A stretch of DNA of 64,000 nucleotides. It comes from Thermanaerothrix daxensis. GTDB lineage: Bacteria; Chloroflexota; Anaerolineae; Anaerolineales; Anaerolineaceae. The stretch is taken from the NCBI RefSeq assembly GCF_001306145.1, contig NZ_LGKO01000002.1:682001-746000 (forward strand). Direction: 5' to 3'. The position numbers and the translations under genes were made by a program. Each line of letters starts with the position of its first letter. The stretch's first letter is position 1. The notes below the pieces were generated by a model, which was not told the DNA's origin, made no database searches, and was given only the letters and a program-made list of their open reading frames with translations. Positions 3,068 through 9,213 of the stretch are shown piece after piece.

Positions 3068-3499
3068 TTAGCGCCCGAGCCGTAAAAGGTCAAGAATTTT
3101 CTTTAAGCCCGCAAGGTACTCGTTGAGTTTAATAACCGGCTCTACCAGGTTGTTCGAAAGGAACACCGTGGTTCCGCGCAGATTGTTGATGGTCTCCTGG
3201 GTAGCCTCCAGGATGGGTTTGACTTCATTTTGAATCAGATTAATCAACACAGCCAGCTGGACGATCAAGATGATAAGCGCAACCCCCAGGAGTAATGACT
3301 CGAGTGCTAATACGATAATGAAGATATCACGTACGCGCGCTGTTGTCTCGGCGGGGGCGACTGCCAGGAGGATAATCCCGCCGATGATAAGGAGAAGTAA
3401 GACGATAATCCCGACGACCAGCCCCGTCAGGCGTTTACGGTCGCCTGCTGAAGATCCCGGCGTTTCGGAGGAGGGGGGGAGAGGTATCTGCTGGGTCAT
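3068..3499 (-). CDS. two-TM membrane protein of unknown function
   Basis: I do not recognise a named family. The preferred start gives 143 residues. A short polar Pro/Ser-rich N-terminus precedes two strongly hydrophobic segments (about residues 25-50, GLVVGIIVLLLLIIGGIILL, and 60-90, IFIIVLALESLLLGVALIIL). An amphipathic helix with regularly spaced Asn/Glu/Lys follows, resembling the apolipoprotein-like tails of DUF948/YtxH-associated proteins. An in-frame ATG exists 30 nt upstream, but the -10 sequence lies between the two and points to ATG 3499. It lies 39 nt upstream of ytxH on the same strand, so the pair could be a small envelope operon. Confidence 0.7.
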   Translation of the reverse strand: MTQQIPLPPSSETPGSSAGDRKRLTGLVVGIIVLLLLIIGGIILLAVAPAETTARVRDIFIIVLALESLLLGVALIILIVQLAVLINLIQNEVKPILEATQETINNLRGTTVFLSNNLVEPVIKLNEYLAGLKKILDLLRLGR

Positions 3500-3505
3500 A
3501 AATTT

Positions 3506-3514
3506 ATTATAGCA
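3506..3514 (-). promoter_or_regulatory. extended -10 promoter placing the RNA start at ATG 3499
   Basis: On the minus strand TGCTATAAT covers 3514-3506. With the usual 6-nt gap, transcription would start at 3499, which is the A of the chosen ATG. There is no convincing -35 and no ribosome binding site near that ATG, so the mRNA may be leaderless. Confidence 0.55.
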
Positions 3515-3603
3515 TATCCTACTGCTCATTTCGGAATCGGATACCTTTCAAATTAGGTCTATACACGGTGAGTTGCGTGCTGATTTATCGGTGCGCAAAA
3601 CGC

Positions 3604-3765: not shown

Positions 3766-3855
3766 GTGTTATTATTTATGCAAGTGTTATTATCCGCCTT
3801 TATTGTGTAATGCTGTGCGGGCAGATTGTACGCTGAATTTTCATTAAGGCTCGCT

Positions 3856-6800
3856 ATGGATGCTCCGGTTCCCATCCTGCCAACCAAAATTTTTGTCCCG
3901 CGCCGCCGTAATGATCTGCTGACCCGGCCCCGCCTGATTGACGCCCTTCACGAACTGCTGGATTACAAGTTAATCATTATTGCTGCACCCGCAGGGTATG
4001 GCAAGACCTCACTGGTAGTAGATTTTGCTCACCATACGGAGTGGCCGTTTTGCTGGTATGCACTGGATACGCTAGATCGTGAACCGGTTCGCTTTCTCAG
4101 CCATCTAATTGCCTCGATAACCATGCAGTTCCCCTTGTTTGGGAAGCGCTCGCGGGCCGTCTTGCAGAACATGGCCCAGGGGGAGTTGAGCCTGGATACA
4201 ATGGTGAGCGCAGTTATCCAGGATATGTTTGAAACGATCAATGAACATTTTGTCATTGTTTTGGATGATTACCATCTGGTTGAAGAAAGTGAACCTATCG
4301 CTTATTTTATCAACCGTCTGGTTCAAGATAGTGATGAAAACTGCCATGTAATTCTCACCTCACGTACCCTAATTGCGCTGCCAGATTTACCCCTGATGGT
4401 GGCACGTTCTCAAGTTGGAGGGCTGGGTGCTGAGGACCTGGCTTTCACCCCGCAAGAGGTGCAAGCCCTTTTCCAGCAAACCCTGCACCAGCCCATCCCA
4501 GAAAGTCTGGCTTACGAACTGACTCGTCTTTCGGAGGGCTGGATTACCGGGCTCCTTCTCTCCTCTCAAATTGCAGATGTCGGAATTTTGGATCGTCTGC
4601 GCCGAGGACGGATTGCCTCGGTGGGGCTGTATGATTTCCTGGCAACCCAGGTGCTGGAGCGTCAACCGGCGGAACTGCGCGATTTTCTGCTCCGCTCTTC
4701 CCTGTTAGAAGAATTTGATGCAGTGGAATGCAGGGAGGTGATCGGGGAGGCTCTGGGAGTTCAGGCAGATTGGAATGCTCTGGTCGGAACGGTTTTACGG
4801 GCGAACCTTTTCTTGACCCCTGTGGGAGAGGGGCGAGTATGGTATCGCTACCACCACCTTTTTGCAGATTTCCTGCGCCAGCGGCTCCTGGCTGAGCGTC
4901 CGGAAGAAGCAGAGAAACTAATTGCTCGGCTGAACGAGCGCTATCGTCAGCAACGTGCTTGGGAACGCATTTACCTGCTGTACCGTCGTTTGGGTCGGGT
5001 GGTTGATACCAGGTCCTTGCTTGAAGAGATTGGGACCGAGTTGTTGGTTGATGGAAAGGTTGTTATTCTTAAAGAATGGTTGGAAGCACTCCCCGAAACA
5101 TCTCTTCATGAAAGCCCCTCTCTTTTATCGCTGAAAGGTAGTGTGTTAGTAATGAGGGGAGATATTCAAGAGGGCTTGACCTGGCTTGAAAGAGCCTTGT
5201 GCGCATTGCATCCTGAGCATGCGCGCACCAAGCGAATTGATGCTTTGATCCGATGTTCAACAGCCCGTCGTGCTATAGGCGATTACAGCGGTGCTTTGAA
5301 AGATATTGATGAGGCTCTGACGCTTACAGAGGGGGAGCCGGGTCTACGAAAGTTGATGGGGGTTGCCTTATATAACAAAGGGATGATCTTCTACCATCAG
5401 GGTTTGATAAAAGATGCGCGCCTTCTAGTTATCCAATCTCTAAGTTCCTTTGATCCGATCGCTGATGCAAGTTACATCGCGTTCGCTTCGATGCAGTTGG
5501 GCACCATAAGTGTAGCGCTTGGGGACTATGTGGAAGCAGAACAGTCCTTTACTCGTGCGGTCAATTACTGGCTTTCGGTAGGGGATACAACTCGTCTTGC
5601 CAATGTTCTGAATAACTTAGGAGACCTAAAGCGTCAGGTTGGGGATTTTGAGGGCGCGCTAAACGCGCTTGAAAAAGCGGTCGAGTACGCACGTCAGAGC
5701 GGTTACCTGCGCATGGAAGCCTATGCGTTGGCTTCCATTGGGGATCTATATCGGGATCTGGGGGTTTGGCGCTCCGCTCAGGAGGCCTATCAGCGCTCGA
5801 ACACCCTGGTCGGACGCTTGGGAGATCGCTTTTTAAGCACTTACTTGCAATTAAATCTGGCCACGGTTTTTGATTTACAGGGCATGACCACGCAGGCCCG
5901 TCCATTGCTGGAGCAGGCCTGGAAGATGGCACGAGAGAGCGGTTCTGCTTATGAACAAAACCTGTGCCGTCTGGAGCAGGGGCGCTTTGAGTTGTTCAAT
6001 GGAAGGTCTGCTGAGGCGGTTCAATTGCTTCAACAGGCGCTGGATTTCTTTGAGGCCGAAGGGCATGTCCTGGAAGCCATGCGGGCTCGCTATTATCAAT
6101 TATTGGCTCGTTGGCGCCTCTTACCCGATGACCCTACCCTTCATTCGGAAATTCTCAACCTGCTCTCGCGTTTGATGGGGCAGGATGCCCCTCCGGTGGT
6201 ACTGAGCTTGATTCGAGAAACACGTCCTCTCCTGGAACTTCTGGCAGAAGACGAAAGGCTGGCTACTTCAATCAATGAGTTGATCTTGCGCTTGGAGCGG
6301 TTTGATCTCCAGTTGAATACTCTGCGCCGACGATTACGGCGACAGGCCACAGCAGTGCCTTTTGCAGGTCCTCAGTTGGTCATTCAAACGCTGGGCAAAA
6401 TTCAGATTAAGCTCAATGATCGCCTTCTTACCATCGGGGATTGGCAAACTCAGAGTGCACGCGATTTATTCCTTTATCTGTTGACACGACCGGAGGGGGT
6501 TACCCGAGAGTCGGTCGGAGCGGTATTCTGGCAGGATTGTTCCCCCCATGAGCTACACCTGCGTTTCAAGAACACCCTGTACCGCCTGCGTCGGGCAGTA
6601 GGCAGGGAGGTGGTGCTTTTCCGCGATGGTATTTATCAGTTCAATACTGAACTGGATTATGAGTACGATGTAGAGCAGTTTTTCCGCGAAATTTATCATG
6701 CTGAACGCAGTGAAGATGCTCGGCAGAGAATTCTCCACTATCAGAACGCCTTGCGGTACTACCAGGGACCCTATCTTCCCGATCTGAACGAGACCTGGGT

Positions 6801-7095
6801 GCTGATCGAACGCCAGCGTCTCTTCAATGCTTATGCGGGAGTTTTGCTCAAACTTGGCAGCCTCTACCTCGAACAGGGGGATACCCAGGGGGCGCTGAGC
6901 TGTGCCCAGCAACTTTTACAAGAAGATCCCTGCTTTGAAGAAGCCCATCGTCTGGCTATGCAGGCGTATGCTGCCATGGGCAATCGCGCGGCGGTGGTGC
7001 GCCAATACGATTATTGTCGTCGGGTATTATCGGAAGAATTAAATACAGCGCCCTCACTCCAGACCCAGTCGTTGTTTGAAGCGCTGACCCGTTAA
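3856..7095 (+). CDS. MalT-like STAND ATPase transcriptional regulator with C-terminal BTAD/SARP-type domain
   Basis: A large regulator of about 1079 residues. The N-terminal NTPase part starts with PTKIFVPRRR, followed by Walker A APAGYGKTS (about residue 45) and Walker B VIVLDDYHL (about residue 136), as in MalT/LuxR-type STAND proteins. The middle (about 380-800) is helical TPR-like repeats, for example LANVLNNLGDLKRQVGDFEGALNALEKA. The C-terminus is not a LuxR helix-turn-helix but a winged-helix plus BTAD module (LGKIQIKLNDRLLTIGDWQT, FKNTLYRLRRAVG, then a TPR region). Such proteins usually act as signal- or ATP-dependent activators. ATG 3856 is preferred over an in-frame TTG at 3826; its SD (AAGG) is weak. 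The small peptide genes directly downstream are plausible targets, by inference. Confidence 0.9.
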   Translation: MDAPVPILPTKIFVPRRRNDLLTRPRLIDALHELLDYKLIIIAAPAGYGKTSLVVDFAHHTEWPFCWYALDTLDREPVRFLSHLIASITMQFPLFGKRSRAVLQNMAQGELSLDTMVSAVIQDMFETINEHFVIVLDDYHLVEESEPIAYFINRLVQDSDENCHVILTSRTLIALPDLPLMVARSQVGGLGAEDLAFTPQEVQALFQQTLHQPIPESLAYELTRLSEGWITGLLLSSQIADVGILDRLRRGRIASVGLYDFLATQVLERQPAELRDFLLRSSLLEEFDAVECREVIGEALGVQADWNALVGTVLRANLFLTPVGEGRVWYRYHHLFADFLRQRLLAERPEEAEKLIARLNERYRQQRAWERIYLLYRRLGRVVDTRSLLEEIGTELLVDGKVVILKEWLEALPETSLHESPSLLSLKGSVLVMRGDIQEGLTWLERALCALHPEHARTKRIDALIRCSTARRAIGDYSGALKDIDEALTLTEGEPGLRKLMGVALYNKGMIFYHQGLIKDARLLVIQSLSSFDPIADASYIAFASMQLGTISVALGDYVEAEQSFTRAVNYWLSVGDTTRLANVLNNLGDLKRQVGDFEGALNALEKAVEYARQSGYLRMEAYALASIGDLYRDLGVWRSAQEAYQRSNTLVGRLGDRFLSTYLQLNLATVFDLQGMTTQARPLLEQAWKMARESGSAYEQNLCRLEQGRFELFNGRSAEAVQLLQQALDFFEAEGHVLEAMRARYYQLLARWRLLPDDPTLHSEILNLLSRLMGQDAPPVVLSLIRETRPLLELLAEDERLATSINELILRLERFDLQLNTLRRRLRRQATAVPFAGPQLVIQTLGKIQIKLNDRLLTIGDWQTQSARDLFLYLLTRPEGVTRESVGAVFWQDCSPHELHLRFKNTLYRLRRAVGREVVLFRDGIYQFNTELDYEYDVEQFFREIYHAERSEDARQRILHYQNALRYYQGPYLPDLNETWVLIERQRLFNAYAGVLLKLGSLYLEQGDTQGALSCAQQLLQEDPCFEEAHRLAMQAYAAMGNRAAVVRQYDYCRRVLSEELNTAPSLQTQSLFEALTR

Positions 7096-7140
7096 TGACC
7101 CACTTGGGTGAGCGGGTTGCATGATAGGGAGGTGGTAATT

Positions 7141-7167
7141 CCCGGTGTTTTACCGGGGTATTTGTAT
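7141..7167 (+). terminator. short hairpin after the BTAD regulator
   Basis: CCCGGT (7141-7146) and ACCGGG (7152-7157) form a 6-bp stem with a 5-nt loop, followed by a T-rich but interrupted tract. Probably a weak terminator separating the regulator from the peptide gene. Confidence 0.45.
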
Positions 7168-7267: not shown

Positions 7268-7300
7268 TTGGAGATGGCCTAAGTGAAAGGAGATTGGAGC

Positions 7301-7471
7301 ATGAAAACGTCCCTGTTCTCGGTGCGCGTAGCAATGGAAATGCCTCAGGCGAGTGGTGATATTAGTCGGCGAGCCCCCCAGGCCAGTGGTGATATTAGCC
7401 GTCGTTCTCCGCAGGCAAGTGGTGATATCAGCCGCCGCTCTCCTCAAGCCAGTGGCGATATCAGCCGATAG
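7301..7471 (+). CDS. small tandem-repeat peptide (four PQASGDISR units)
   Basis: A 56-residue peptide starting at ATG 7301, with AAAGGAG 8 nt upstream. A 14-residue N-terminus (MKTSLFSVRVAMEM) is followed by four copies of PQASGDISR. Copies 1-3 are joined to the next by R-A or R-S, giving an 11-residue period, and the protein ends with the fourth copy. Neighbouring repeat copies differ at about five positions per 27-30 nt, and all changes inside the PQASGDISR(R) unit are synonymous. This shows that the amino acid sequence is selected. There is no Cys, Lys is present only at residue 2, and there is no clear signal peptide. The dibasic RR junctions resemble processing sites of multi-copy propeptides. 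I know of no matching family. Function is unknown; a ribosomal natural product or signalling peptide precursor is one inference. Confidence 0.7.
   Translation: MKTSLFSVRVAMEMPQASGDISRRAPQASGDISRRSPQASGDISRRSPQASGDISR
7343..7468 (+). repeat. four 33-nt tandem coding repeats (last one 27 nt)
   Basis: Units lie at 7343-7375, 7376-7408, 7409-7441 and 7442-7468. The AGT (Ser) and GAT (Asp) codons are invariant. Pro, Ala, Gln, Gly, Ile, Arg and the second Ser vary in synonymous bases. The 33-nt period equals about three helical turns. There are no spacers, so it is not a CRISPR array. Confidence 0.95.
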
Positions 7472-7545: not shown

Positions 7546-7598
7546 AACTGCGGGGTCGAGAATTGGTCTAAAAGGACCAAACCCGCAGTTTTTGTTTT
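7546..7598 (+). terminator. strong terminator after the repeat peptide gene
   Basis: The outer stem AACTGCGGG (7546-7554) pairs with CCCGCAGTT (7582-7590), and an inner stem TTGGTC (7563-7568) pairs with GACCAA (7575-7580). TTTTTGTTTT follows. It closes the peptide transcript before the next gene. Confidence 0.88.
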
Positions 7599-7614
7599 GG
7601 CTTGAAAGGTTGTT

Positions 7615-7698: not shown

Positions 7699-8001
7699 AT
7701 GCGCTACGCAATGGATTTAGAAGGTCGAACTGTAACTTACAATAGGACGGCAACTGAAACTGAGGTGAGCCGGCTCTTTTGTGCGGCAGTGGTCAGCAAA
7801 CGCTTCCGTGAGCAATTGCTGGCTGACCCGATTCTAGCCGTTGCCCAGGGGTATAACGGCGAATCCTTCAACCTGCCACAAGAGGCCTTGGAACGCTTGA
7901 GCCACATCCGGGCAGACTCACTCAGTGATTTTGCGGCCCAATTCATTGCTTGCGAGACACCTGTGCGGGTTGAGTTCCCGGTATCTGCGAGTGTGCACTG
8001 A
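7699..8001 (+). CDS. small NHLP/Nif11-like protein, possible RiPP precursor or relative
   Basis: A 100-residue protein. ATG 7699 has a textbook GGAGGT 5 nt upstream; an in-frame GTG at 7666 is less likely. The core (about residues 24-80: SRLFCAAVVSKRFREQLLAD, PILAVAQGYNGESFNL, RLSHIRADSLSDFAAQF) resembles the short helical leader regions of the nitrile-hydratase-like leader peptide / Nif11 clan, small forms of which occur in Chloroflexota. The C-terminal tail (CETPVRVEFPVSASVH) would be the core if it were a RiPP precursor; it lacks Cys/Ser-rich runs. No maturation enzyme is visible in the window, so the role is open. It lies 24 nt upstream of the HD-GYP gene, so co-transcription is likely. 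Confidence 0.6.
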   Translation: MRYAMDLEGRTVTYNRTATETEVSRLFCAAVVSKRFREQLLADPILAVAQGYNGESFNLPQEALERLSHIRADSLSDFAAQFIACETPVRVEFPVSASVH

Positions 8002-8025: not shown

Positions 8026-9213
8026 TTGCGAGACGATGATAACCCTGAGTTGAGGTTCTTCCCCATGGATGCTCGCCTTCCGGATACGGGTGAATTGCGG
8101 CGCTTGGTGGCCGAGTCGGTGACTAAAACCGGCTTTGAGCCGACTACGTCCTCATTTGCCCCTTCAATGCCCACTTATGAGGACCCTCTCAGTGCGGCAT
8201 TGAGCGGATTGGCGACATGTGGGGTGAACGTAACCCGGGCGGCTTTTTGCAAGGTTGTGATTCTTGGAGAGGAGTGGGGGTTCGAAAGTCGTGCAGTGGC
8301 GTTTGCGGATGGGGGTGGACACATCCGACGGACTGCAGAGCCCTTCTACGCTCAGCGCTTATACCATCAGGTTGTTACTTCGGGTTCTCCTTTGCTCATC
8401 TCGCGCGGGCAGGATTCCTTAAGCCTGGATGAGGGGCGTACCCTTCGCTACCATGATGCTAGAGCATTATTCCTTGCGTCAATTGGAGAGGACTCTTCGC
8501 AGGTAAGAGGCGTTCTGATCATAGGTGTCAAGCAGTCGGCACATTTTCACGATGGGCAACTGAGGTTAGCCGGGCTATTGGCGCGATATGCCCCTTCGCT
8601 GATAGATTATGTGACCCGGCCGGAGGCACGTCCACCGCTATATAACGATGTGGTCATGCTCTCGAAAAGCATCGAGGCGTATGATTTATCCATCACCCAG
8701 CATAGTATGACCATGGTTCAGATGGCCGAGCGGCTGGCCGAGCGCCTGGGGTGCCTGCCGACCGAGATAAAAACGATAGGTCTGGCGGCTCTGCTCCACG
8801 ATTTGGGAAAGGTGGGTGTCCCGACGGTCATTTTGCAAAAACCAGGTTCTCTTTCTCCGGAAGAATGGGTGTTGATGCGTCGTCACCCCGAGATTGGGGC
8901 TCAGATTGTCCAAACGGTTACCGGTTTAAGCGGTGTGGCAACTATCATCCAGTGTCACCACGAAAACTTTGATGGGAGTGGCTATCCTCACGGTTTAAGG
9001 GGCTGTCAGATCCCGTTGGGGGCCCGCATTTTGGCAGTTGTGGATGCATTTGAAGCCATTACCAGCGGGCGGGTGTACCGACCGCCTCGCTCGCCGGAAG
9101 CGGCTCTACAGGAAATTCAGCGCTGTGCAGGTACTCAATTCGATCCACAGATTGTTGAGGCGTTCGTAGCGCTGATCCATGAAGAAGGGTTTAACGCTAA
9201 TCAGGGGGAGTAA
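8026..9213 (+). CDS. GAF-like/HD-GYP domain protein, likely cyclic-di-GMP phosphodiesterase
   Basis: A 395-residue protein. The start is TTG 8026 with GAGGTGA 6 nt upstream; the next ATG (8065) has no such site. Residues about 45-190 look like a GAF-type sensory domain. Residues about 205-390 are an HD-GYP domain with the metal-binding HDLGK, HHENFDGSGYP (the GYP signature) and DAFEAITSGRVYR. The catalytic residues look intact, so cyclic dinucleotide hydrolysis is expected. No membrane segment is apparent, so it is probably cytoplasmic. It probably shares a transcript with the small NHLP-like protein; whether the two work together is inference. Confidence 0.88.
   Translation: MRDDDNPELRFFPMDARLPDTGELRRLVAESVTKTGFEPTTSSFAPSMPTYEDPLSAALSGLATCGVNVTRAAFCKVVILGEEWGFESRAVAFADGGGHIRRTAEPFYAQRLYHQVVTSGSPLLISRGQDSLSLDEGRTLRYHDARALFLASIGEDSSQVRGVLIIGVKQSAHFHDGQLRLAGLLARYAPSLIDYVTRPEARPPLYNDVVMLSKSIEAYDLSITQHSMTMVQMAERLAERLGCLPTEIKTIGLAALLHDLGKVGVPTVILQKPGSLSPEEWVLMRRHPEIGAQIVQTVTGLSGVATIIQCHHENFDGSGYPHGLRGCQIPLGARILAVVDAFEAITSGRVYRPPRSPEAALQEIQRCAGTQFDPQIVEAFVALIHEEGFNANQGE

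Follow-up and report, generated by a model that had tools for sequence, protein, structure and literature searches.

The repeat gene and its surroundings

The window analysed here, which is the whole 64,000-nucleotide (64-kb) stretch of the Thermanaerothrix daxensis genome, carries on its forward strand a small gene at 7301-7471 encoding a tandem-unit peptide of 56 aa, in which four copies of PQASGDISR are joined by R(A/S). The translation reads MKTSLFSVRVAMEM-(PQASGDISR+RA/RS)x3-PQASGDISR and then stop, the order after MKTSLFSVRVAMEM being PQASGDISRRA, PQASGDISRRS, PQASGDISRRS and PQASGDISR, and this confirms the four back-to-back units described in the initial annotation. All features given below for the window lie on the same strand. 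The units are found at 7343-7369 (linker RA after it), 7376-7402 and 7409-7435 (linker RS after each) and 7442-7468, where the stop codon follows immediately 3'. The N-terminal part MKTSLFSVRVAMEM (7301-7342) is short and without the long hydrophobic helix of the helix-type relatives described below; absence of this helix from the repeat protein and the related arrays, and its presence in the helix-type relatives, were judged by eye and by regular expression only. An AGGAG ribosome-binding site at 7288-7292 stands 8 nt ahead of the ATG at 7301, and a translation start at 7301 therefore fits.

The units are spaced by 33 nt, and Tandem Repeats Finder gives a period of 33, 3.7 copies, 83% matches and a score of 139, the sole other array in the 64 kb having a score of 51 at a threshold of 50. 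The PQASGDISR unit is unique in the genome: a degenerate pattern for ASGDISR, in which Ser is AGY, matches the 3.0 Mb at exactly four places, all of them in the repeat gene, and the reversed control pattern has 0 matches. No model of Pfam or NCBIfam was above cut-off for the repeat protein or the five relatives tested (best E 0.14-0.23, chance level), nor did an NHLP leader in the repeat protein match in either collection, which is in line with the earlier statement that no described bacterial family with this unit is known.

Upstream lies the gene of a regulator (3826-7095; the start is uncertain, ATG 3856 being also possible) with a MalT-like NTPase, a TPR superhelix, a winged helix and a BTAD domain, which is the candidate receptor. 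It is followed 3' by a terminator-like hairpin (7140-7158), from a simple pattern scan that found 2 sites against 0.6 expected in shuffles. A second, stable hairpin with a T run, 3' of the peptide gene (7548-7600, z -4.7), is a probable terminator missed by the simple terminator rule; it is kept in a same-genus genome (L041, z -4.8) with a changed inner stem-loop. Next comes, at 7699-8001, a small NHLP-clan protein of 100 residues (Frankia_peptide/Os1348-like), a conserved partner, whose matches to Frankia_peptide PF14407 (E 2e-7, 31.7 bits) and Os1348 NF038399 (E 6e-6, 26.3 bits) are below the curated cut-offs of 48 and 40, respectively. The following gene (8026-9213) encodes an HD-GYP domain protein that also matches GAF weakly, and an HD-GYP gene was recognised by regular expression 3' of NHLP in 32 of 49 loci. 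Six further neighbours were compared with Pfam and comprise a YtxH protein, an HtrA-like protease, SurE, Rrf2, a thioesterase and the matchless 3071-3529. Among the neighbours scanned (~2.7-13.2 kb, with 3071-3529 matchless) Pfam names no modifying enzyme or dedicated exporter. In the genome PF00496 (oligopeptide-binding) is matched 11 times, in two cases by a short piece next to another match, and re-import of a peptide would thus be conceivable.

Over PQASGDISR the successive pairs of units are 4, 4 and 5 bases apart; with the following R counted, which unit 4 lacks, the first two pairs are 5 and 5 bases apart, in agreement with the figure of about five bases per unit given previously. As was also stated there, every inter-unit difference is synonymous, all being at the third codon position, and the A/S linker is the only residue that changes. 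The comparison of substitution rates between repeats that had been proposed as a check gave, by the Nei-Gojobori method for the four 9-codon units, pS 0.784 and pN 0.000, with 29 synonymous and 0 nonsynonymous differences over all pairs. The minimal changes among the units (at least 11 base changes) are distributed 0/0/11 over codon positions 1, 2 and 3, and the chance that 11 of 11 random changes would be synonymous is ~3e-7 in a simple model with ts/tv 2. The unit cores of the arrays at L046, L049 and L099, from two other genera, are likewise without amino-acid change. Because the drift between units is synonymous only, selection acts on the peptide; the unit is under purifying selection at the peptide level, and the selection proposed in the initial annotation is upheld.

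The same data bear on the idea that the repeat operates in DNA or RNA, as binding sites, iterons or a structured RNA, and is an open frame by chance. The 33-nt period and the location between two hairpins would suit such a repeat, but 11 of 11 minimal changes being synonymous third-position changes is the opposite of DNA-level constraint. The synonymous-only pattern is moreover seen in the arrays of three other genomes, the ribosome-binding site is correctly placed, and relatives encode one copy as protein. A repeat of this kind is therefore exceedingly improbable, and the DNA-repeat model was rejected since all inter-unit changes are synonymous.

Peptide genes at the same position in relatives

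Direct searches found no orthologue with the identical unit in 298 genomes of the class, a contig collection of 84,980 species, IMG/VR or plasmids, where the contig collections were searched with exact peptide patterns and very near genomes may be missing from them. Among the 298 class genomes 69, including the own genome, had a match at E <= 0.1 (best besides own 1.6e-4), and five of these matches were translated and seemed by eye to be unrelated repetitive or chance matches. The own genome has a weak second match to the peptide (E 0.61), and 39 of 61 genomes (own and 60 relatives) match at E <= 1, few of which were inspected. The genome contig collection gave 351 pattern matches and the IMG/VR viral contigs 24, with 0 relatives in both, and 7 plasmid records at E 0.05-0.7 included none that was convincing. 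In the same-genus genome G298 the assembly is broken from mid-regulator to just 3' of the peptide gene (end of contig C9, start of C12; L041:1-160).

As the peptide itself gave no convincing match, the gene was identified in relatives by synteny with NHLP, the slot being the gene position between regulator and NHLP, read upstream of NHLP in the relatives' loci. Most loci read have short genes in this slot, and a weak match in G319 (E 0.147) turned out to be within the correct slot once synteny was applied. Absence of any orthologue with the same unit had been named earlier as a refutation; no identical unit was indeed found in the genomes searched, yet the slot commonly holds positional orthologues whose unit is homologous but different.

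A typical slot peptide is MINQIITQLASTVEPKHGRLFFLLLVLVLFILGAGAPAAIGGVGG (L056), in which a hydrophobic helix precedes a GAP-type tail; in many cases the stop codon follows this tail immediately. Peptides of this helix type have one tail each, for example GAPAAIGGVGG, with the membrane protein DUF5317 encoded nearby, and some tails contain Cys (GAPFCVGGVGG, GAPGCIGGAGG). Four of the NHLP-positive genomes have helix-free versions: T. daxensis (4 units), G319 (L046; an array of 6 units KPGASGGFGGY), G325 (L049; two genes with 4 units each of KPGASGGIGGGY) and G306 (L059; a single copy, MTANFKSIDQNSMSIFASSPTASGGIGGV). From the order-wide set comes G596 (L099), of the same genus as G325, with two genes of five units each in KPGASGGIGGGY-type arrays. 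The junctions in the L046, L049 and L099 arrays are Y-K (once C-K and once Y-M), as against RR in T. daxensis. The propeptide-like reading of the initial annotation thus holds for a multi-copy peptide gene but not for the RR junction as a family feature, and RR cleavage as a family rule was rejected because the other arrays are joined by Y-K. Nor is the short leader supported as an export signal: the start behind AGGAG in L049 and L099 leaves only M, MN or MH ahead of the first unit.

Multiplication also takes the form of whole-gene copies, 2-4 helix-type genes being counted by a regular-expression rule in 8 of 82 loci (L042, L043, L048, L102, L110, L148, L149 and L191). Taken together with the intragenic arrays this means that a raised dose recurs by two routes. 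At L149 (1057-1686, minus strand) there are five GAGAP matches, of which the regular-expression rule counted four genes.

Other slot peptides depart from the typical form. Those of genus g2 (L053, L107, L108, L109, L121 and L122) are of the helix type with an extended hydrophobic end (GAPEAGGGIINSIINFPGW and similar), so that the tail is not always nine residues ahead of the stop. Hydrophobic slot peptides without the GAP motif were seen at L051:1089-1220 (Longilinea arvoryzae, G324), ending TCPGMPGGISG, and at L165 (G425), ending PMPGDVSG. L163:5-219 has, 5' of the NHLP gene, imperfect tandem DNA repeats, mostly ~21 nt apart, that are unrelated to the units.

A tree of 49 regulators (44 orthologues and 5 paralogues), made by a quick method without bootstrap, places the regulator of L181/G321 as sister to that of T. 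daxensis, with an SH-aLRT of 99. The L181/G321 peptide ends in APGATGDIGH, and PGATGDIGH shares 5 of 9 residues with PQASGDISR, the highest of 41 tails. A profile of helix-type tails, without arrays, was made from 41 hand-copied tails, with tails of less than nine residues left out and an ungapped fit from P. Only 3 of 1266 P-initiated 9-mers from the long open frames of the window score at least as high as PQASGDISR against it, and 129 of 100,000 shuffles of residues 2-9 of the unit score as well. The unit itself reaches 6.1 bits when the fixed P is left out, which is less than 38 of the 41 helix-type tails obtain in leave-one-out scoring, and the other helix-free units score above it (13.8-15.1); with such a low score the profile alone would not carry a claim of homology. 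From the shared slot, the sister tail and the tail profile together, the unit is judged homologous to the tails of the relatives. The common unit would then have roughly nine residues with the consensus P-x-A-S/T-G-G/D-I/V/F-G/S-G/R.

The NHLP-like neighbour and the multiplied units raise the question of a RiPP precursor, where the units would be modified, released core peptides and the NHLP-clan protein would aid their maturation or be the real precursor. Multi-core precursors occur among RiPPs, Cys is present in some helix-type tails, and the neighbour resembles NHLP/Frankia_peptide as given above. The gene cluster that contains Os1348 is bacteriocin-like, and without Os1348 the antibiotic activity is lower (PMC7726476). 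The resemblance is, however, below both curated cut-offs, Pfam names no modifying enzyme or exporter around the repeat gene (~2.7-13.2 kb of the window), and neither was recognised by eye in the 1.5-kb surroundings in relatives. The leaderless L049 and L099 arrays would offer an enzyme no leader to bind, and the PQASGDISR unit is without Cys. We consider a RiPP precursor unlikely.

Linkage to the regulator, NHLP and DUF5317

The NHLP protein is present in 26 of 61 genomes (own and 60 relatives) and in 141 of 400 genomes of the order. Of the 26 NHLP-positive genomes 25 have a regulator orthologue (at least 460 bits; next best 351), and none of the 35 NHLP-negative genomes does; the exception among the NHLP-positive ones is G322, where NHLP is near a contig start. 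Judged by coordinates, regulator and peptide gene are neighbours in 21 of these 26 genomes; in 3 they are apart, and in G298 and G322 they are at contig ends. In the three split genomes (G312, G271 and G326; L077, L079 and L083) neither a slot peptide nor an NHLP gene was recognised 3' of the regulator, and the peptide is found with NHLP and DUF5317 on another contig. By regular expression 17 of 44 named regulator loci have NHLP, some of the others being cut by contig ends, and full-length regulator loci without NHLP by this rule include Pelolinea submarina L174 and Anaerolinea thermolimosa L187. These loci and the three split genomes indicate that the peptide is tied tighter to NHLP than to the regulator. 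The NHLP-clan genes at L135, L140 and L142 are second copies without recognised peptide or DUF5317 upstream, with fuller loci (L134, L139 and L141) in the same genomes.

Location away from the regulator in three genomes is what might be expected for a secreted effector peptide, bacteriocin-like or surface-active, which the regulator would control rather than sense. The exported look of the helix-type relatives agrees with this, as does the higher dose from whole-gene and intragenic multiplication. The adjacency in 21 of 26 genomes and the fact that the tail follows the regulator tree in the T. daxensis lineage speak against it, and furthermore the arrays are without evident export signal and no immunity gene was recognised by eye. 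An effector is in our opinion quite improbable.

DUF5317 (PF17248) is present in 20 of the 61 genomes, all of which are NHLP-positive with DUF5317 at the slot locus and a peptide of the helix type (in one case GAL for GAP). The six NHLP-positive genomes without DUF5317 are the four helix-free ones (T. daxensis, G306, G319 and G325), G324 with its non-GAP helix, and G298 with the assembly gap; for G298 and G306, with assemblies 88% complete, the absence is less sure. Of 14 control genomes two, those of Thermotoga maritima and Thermus composti, have PF17248 as well.

From 89 distinct NHLP loci, 7 with short upstream sequence were dropped, leaving 82 with at least 900 nt upstream, in which DUF5317 was sought up to 1.7 kb upstream of NHLP only. 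Helix-GAP peptide and DUF5317 occur together in 67 of these, and 4 arrays, 1 helix-free single copy and 1 non-GAP helix are all without DUF5317 at the locus. The remaining 9 have no peptide by regular expression, with DUF5317 present in L116, L133, L144 and L154 and absent in L135, L140, L142, L163 and L165. Reading six of the nine (L116, L133, L144, L154, L163 and L165) revealed a GAA-variant helix with DUF5317 in L133, a non-GAP helix peptide with no DUF5317 beside it in L165, and no slot peptide in L116, L144, L154 and L163. The regular expression also miscounted a spurious ORF in another frame of L001 as helix type. The locus tallies thus indicate that helix plus GAP goes with DUF5317, and L051 and L165 suggest that DUF5317 accompanies the GAP motif rather than the helix alone.

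A Fisher test of the table [[20,0],[1,4]] gives p 4e-4 with shared ancestry ignored, and since the tree has few changes the association between helix and DUF5317 amounts to ~2-3 independent events. A single clade for the four helix-free lineages was rejected (p-AU 2e-39), and parsimony requires at least 2 changes to arrays and at least 3 to helix-free peptides. The arrays have accordingly arisen more than once.

Absence of the membrane protein DUF5317 in the array lineages would also agree with an uncut polypeptide that serves as an intracellular multivalent ligand or scaffold, its partner being the regulator or else the NHLP or HD-GYP protein; multiple copies would then provide avidity and not more product. 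The lack of an evident export signal, the leaderless L049 and L099 arrays and the variation of junction residues between lineages are in favour of such a scaffold. In the final units and in many single-copy tails, however, the last residue directly precedes the stop codon, a hint that a free C-terminus is important, and uncut internal units would lack one, while the 8 loci with 2-4 whole single-copy genes have dose without avidity. A scaffold is hence, like the RiPP precursor, not a likely explanation.

The regulator was modelled from 18 sequences (mean pLDDT 84.0, pTM 0.59), and the predicted structure has regular TPR helices from ~437 to 774 (numbering from window 3856). Foldseek placed a chain of 8bob, an entry on maltose regulation, and a STAND-TPR protein at the top of the matches to the model. 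With VIA-align the two best matches of the TPR part were a ubiquitin-ligase TPR protein with a degron peptide (8jaq and 8jal, Z 31.8 and 31.7). MalT domain III (1hz4; Z 28.4, rmsd 4.2, 361 aligned), RapF with its peptide (4i9c; Z 27.1, rmsd 5.0, 350 aligned), Rap of phi3T with pheromones (Z 26.8-27.1), NprR-NprX (4gpk; Z 24.3, rmsd 5.0, 343 aligned) and AimR (Z 21.1) were also matched. TPR folds match widely, 719 of 942 chains having Z >= 8, and the model is therefore compatible with peptide binding but is no proof of it.

The DUF5317 model (14 sequences, pLDDT 86.6, pTM 0.81) had no Foldseek match at E <= 0.001, and the profile had no match in a PDB sequence search. In VIA-align the second row was 5dir_A, with a middling Z of 5.2 (rmsd 5.7, 100 aligned), near a respirasome chain (Z 5.6) and others. 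We take 5dir to be signal peptidase II, LspA. The DUF5317 alignment (L186:13629-14213, L181:13121-13708 and others) has an invariant Asp 151 and S-x-G-D169 (L186 numbering), and these invariant residues recall the Asp pair that is presumably catalytic in LspA, for which the motif FNxAD was read from an alignment. In hhalign AFSxGD of DUF5317 falls on VFNxAD of LspA homologues, though not significantly (Prob 0.4%, E 0.14, 17 columns). As a lead only, DUF5317 might be a membrane aspartyl peptidase similar to signal peptidase II.

A putative peptide-signalling system and its known counterparts

With a probability of roughly 0.6, we consider the gene at 7301-7471 to be a multi-copy version of an undescribed regulatory peptide that is probably bound by the TPR regulator. 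The matching peptide in relatives beside a possible sensor regulator points to an undescribed peptide-signalling system. In the literature searched, subscription journals being mostly outside its scope, there was no report on DUF5317 or on peptide signalling in this phylum, and the top-ranked matches of broader searches included none of such a system.

In most of the relatives read, the peptide would be the C-terminal tail of a membrane-anchored precursor, encoded directly 3' of the MalT-like NTPase-TPR-BTAD transcription regulator. The unit may be the ligand of the TPR superhelix of the regulator, which would thereby report the peptide level. In helix-type species the tail is probably released across the membrane, perhaps with the help of DUF5317. 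In the T. daxensis lineage, where helix and DUF5317 are both absent, the unit appears to be multiplied instead, which would give more peptide per transcript and may keep the signal intracellular. Arrays could in this way by-pass membrane release, and their peptide might act inside the cell or exit by another route. No export signal is evident in the 7301-7471 precursor, and the arrays of L049 and L099 are leaderless, which makes them a misfit with a classical secreted pheromone.

It may be speculated, although we find it rather doubtful, that the Anaerolineae own a peptide-signalling system in which a STAND-TPR-BTAD protein is the receptor, the signal is a GAP-tail peptide, and DUF5317, as a relative of signal peptidase II, is the dedicated membrane aspartyl peptidase. 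On two or more occasions helix and peptidase would have been discarded together for leader-poor or leaderless concatemers, so that a signal once exported became private to the cell.

TPR-receptor peptide quorum sensing is described for Firmicutes, and if the regulatory-peptide reading is true, the class Anaerolineae, which often are filamentous anaerobes, would gain a readable peptide code. STAND regulators of the MalT/SARP type would acquire a peptide ligand, and DUF5317, a domain of unknown function, would acquire a testable role. The switch from an anchored single copy to leaderless multiple copies would be a natural experiment on the need for a signal to leave the cell.

Several known systems share some features with the present one. 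Cyanobactins, plesiocin-type graspetides and the yeast alpha-factor precursor have several identical product units per precursor; these precursors carry a leader or a signal sequence, and their junctions are recognised by proteases or maturation enzymes. In contrast to these multi-core RiPPs and alpha-factor, the junctions here vary and some arrays are leaderless. The resemblance to Os1348 and Frankia_peptide concerns the NHLP-like core of the 7699-8001 neighbour and not the repeat peptide; the neighbour is below the family cut-offs and no modification genes are recognised beside it. The candidate receptor has the domains of the MalT and AfsR-SARP regulators (STAND NTPase, TPR and BTAD). MalT senses maltotriose, and we know of no peptide ligand for the MalT/AfsR-SARP class.

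The closest comparison is with the RRNPPA systems (Rap-Phr, NprR-NprX, PlcR-PapR and AimR-AimP), in which a regulator with a TPR superhelix likewise has a short peptide gene directly downstream, as 3826-7095 is followed by 7301-7471 here, and the active part is short and typically C-terminal, corresponding to the unit or tail in our case; the mature RRNPPA pheromone bound by the receptor has 5-10 aa. To our knowledge, DUF5317 and the NHLP protein have no RRNPPA counterpart. Peptide dose is similarly increased by multiplication in RRNPPA systems, both in 'chatterers', which repeat the unit within a propeptide or have more than one propeptide of similar sequence (PMC9765709), and in two phage Rap systems with tandem pheromones and duplicated Phr propeptides (PMC11343458). 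RRNPPA propeptides are described in PMC11343458 as typically Sec-exported, unlike the 7301-7471 precursor with no evident Sec-type signal. The survey of Firmicutes in PMC9765709 found RRNPPA systems in several genera, all but one within the Bacilli. The receptor here has ~1090 aa with a MalT-like NTPase-TPR-winged helix-BTAD arrangement, as opposed to the N-terminal HTH-TPR or Rap forms. Since this architecture is not of the Rap/Rgg/NprR/PlcR/PrgX/AimR type, in which the TPR part is accompanied by just an N-terminal HTH or 3-helix bundle, we do not file the system under RRNPPA, although it would work like such a pair.
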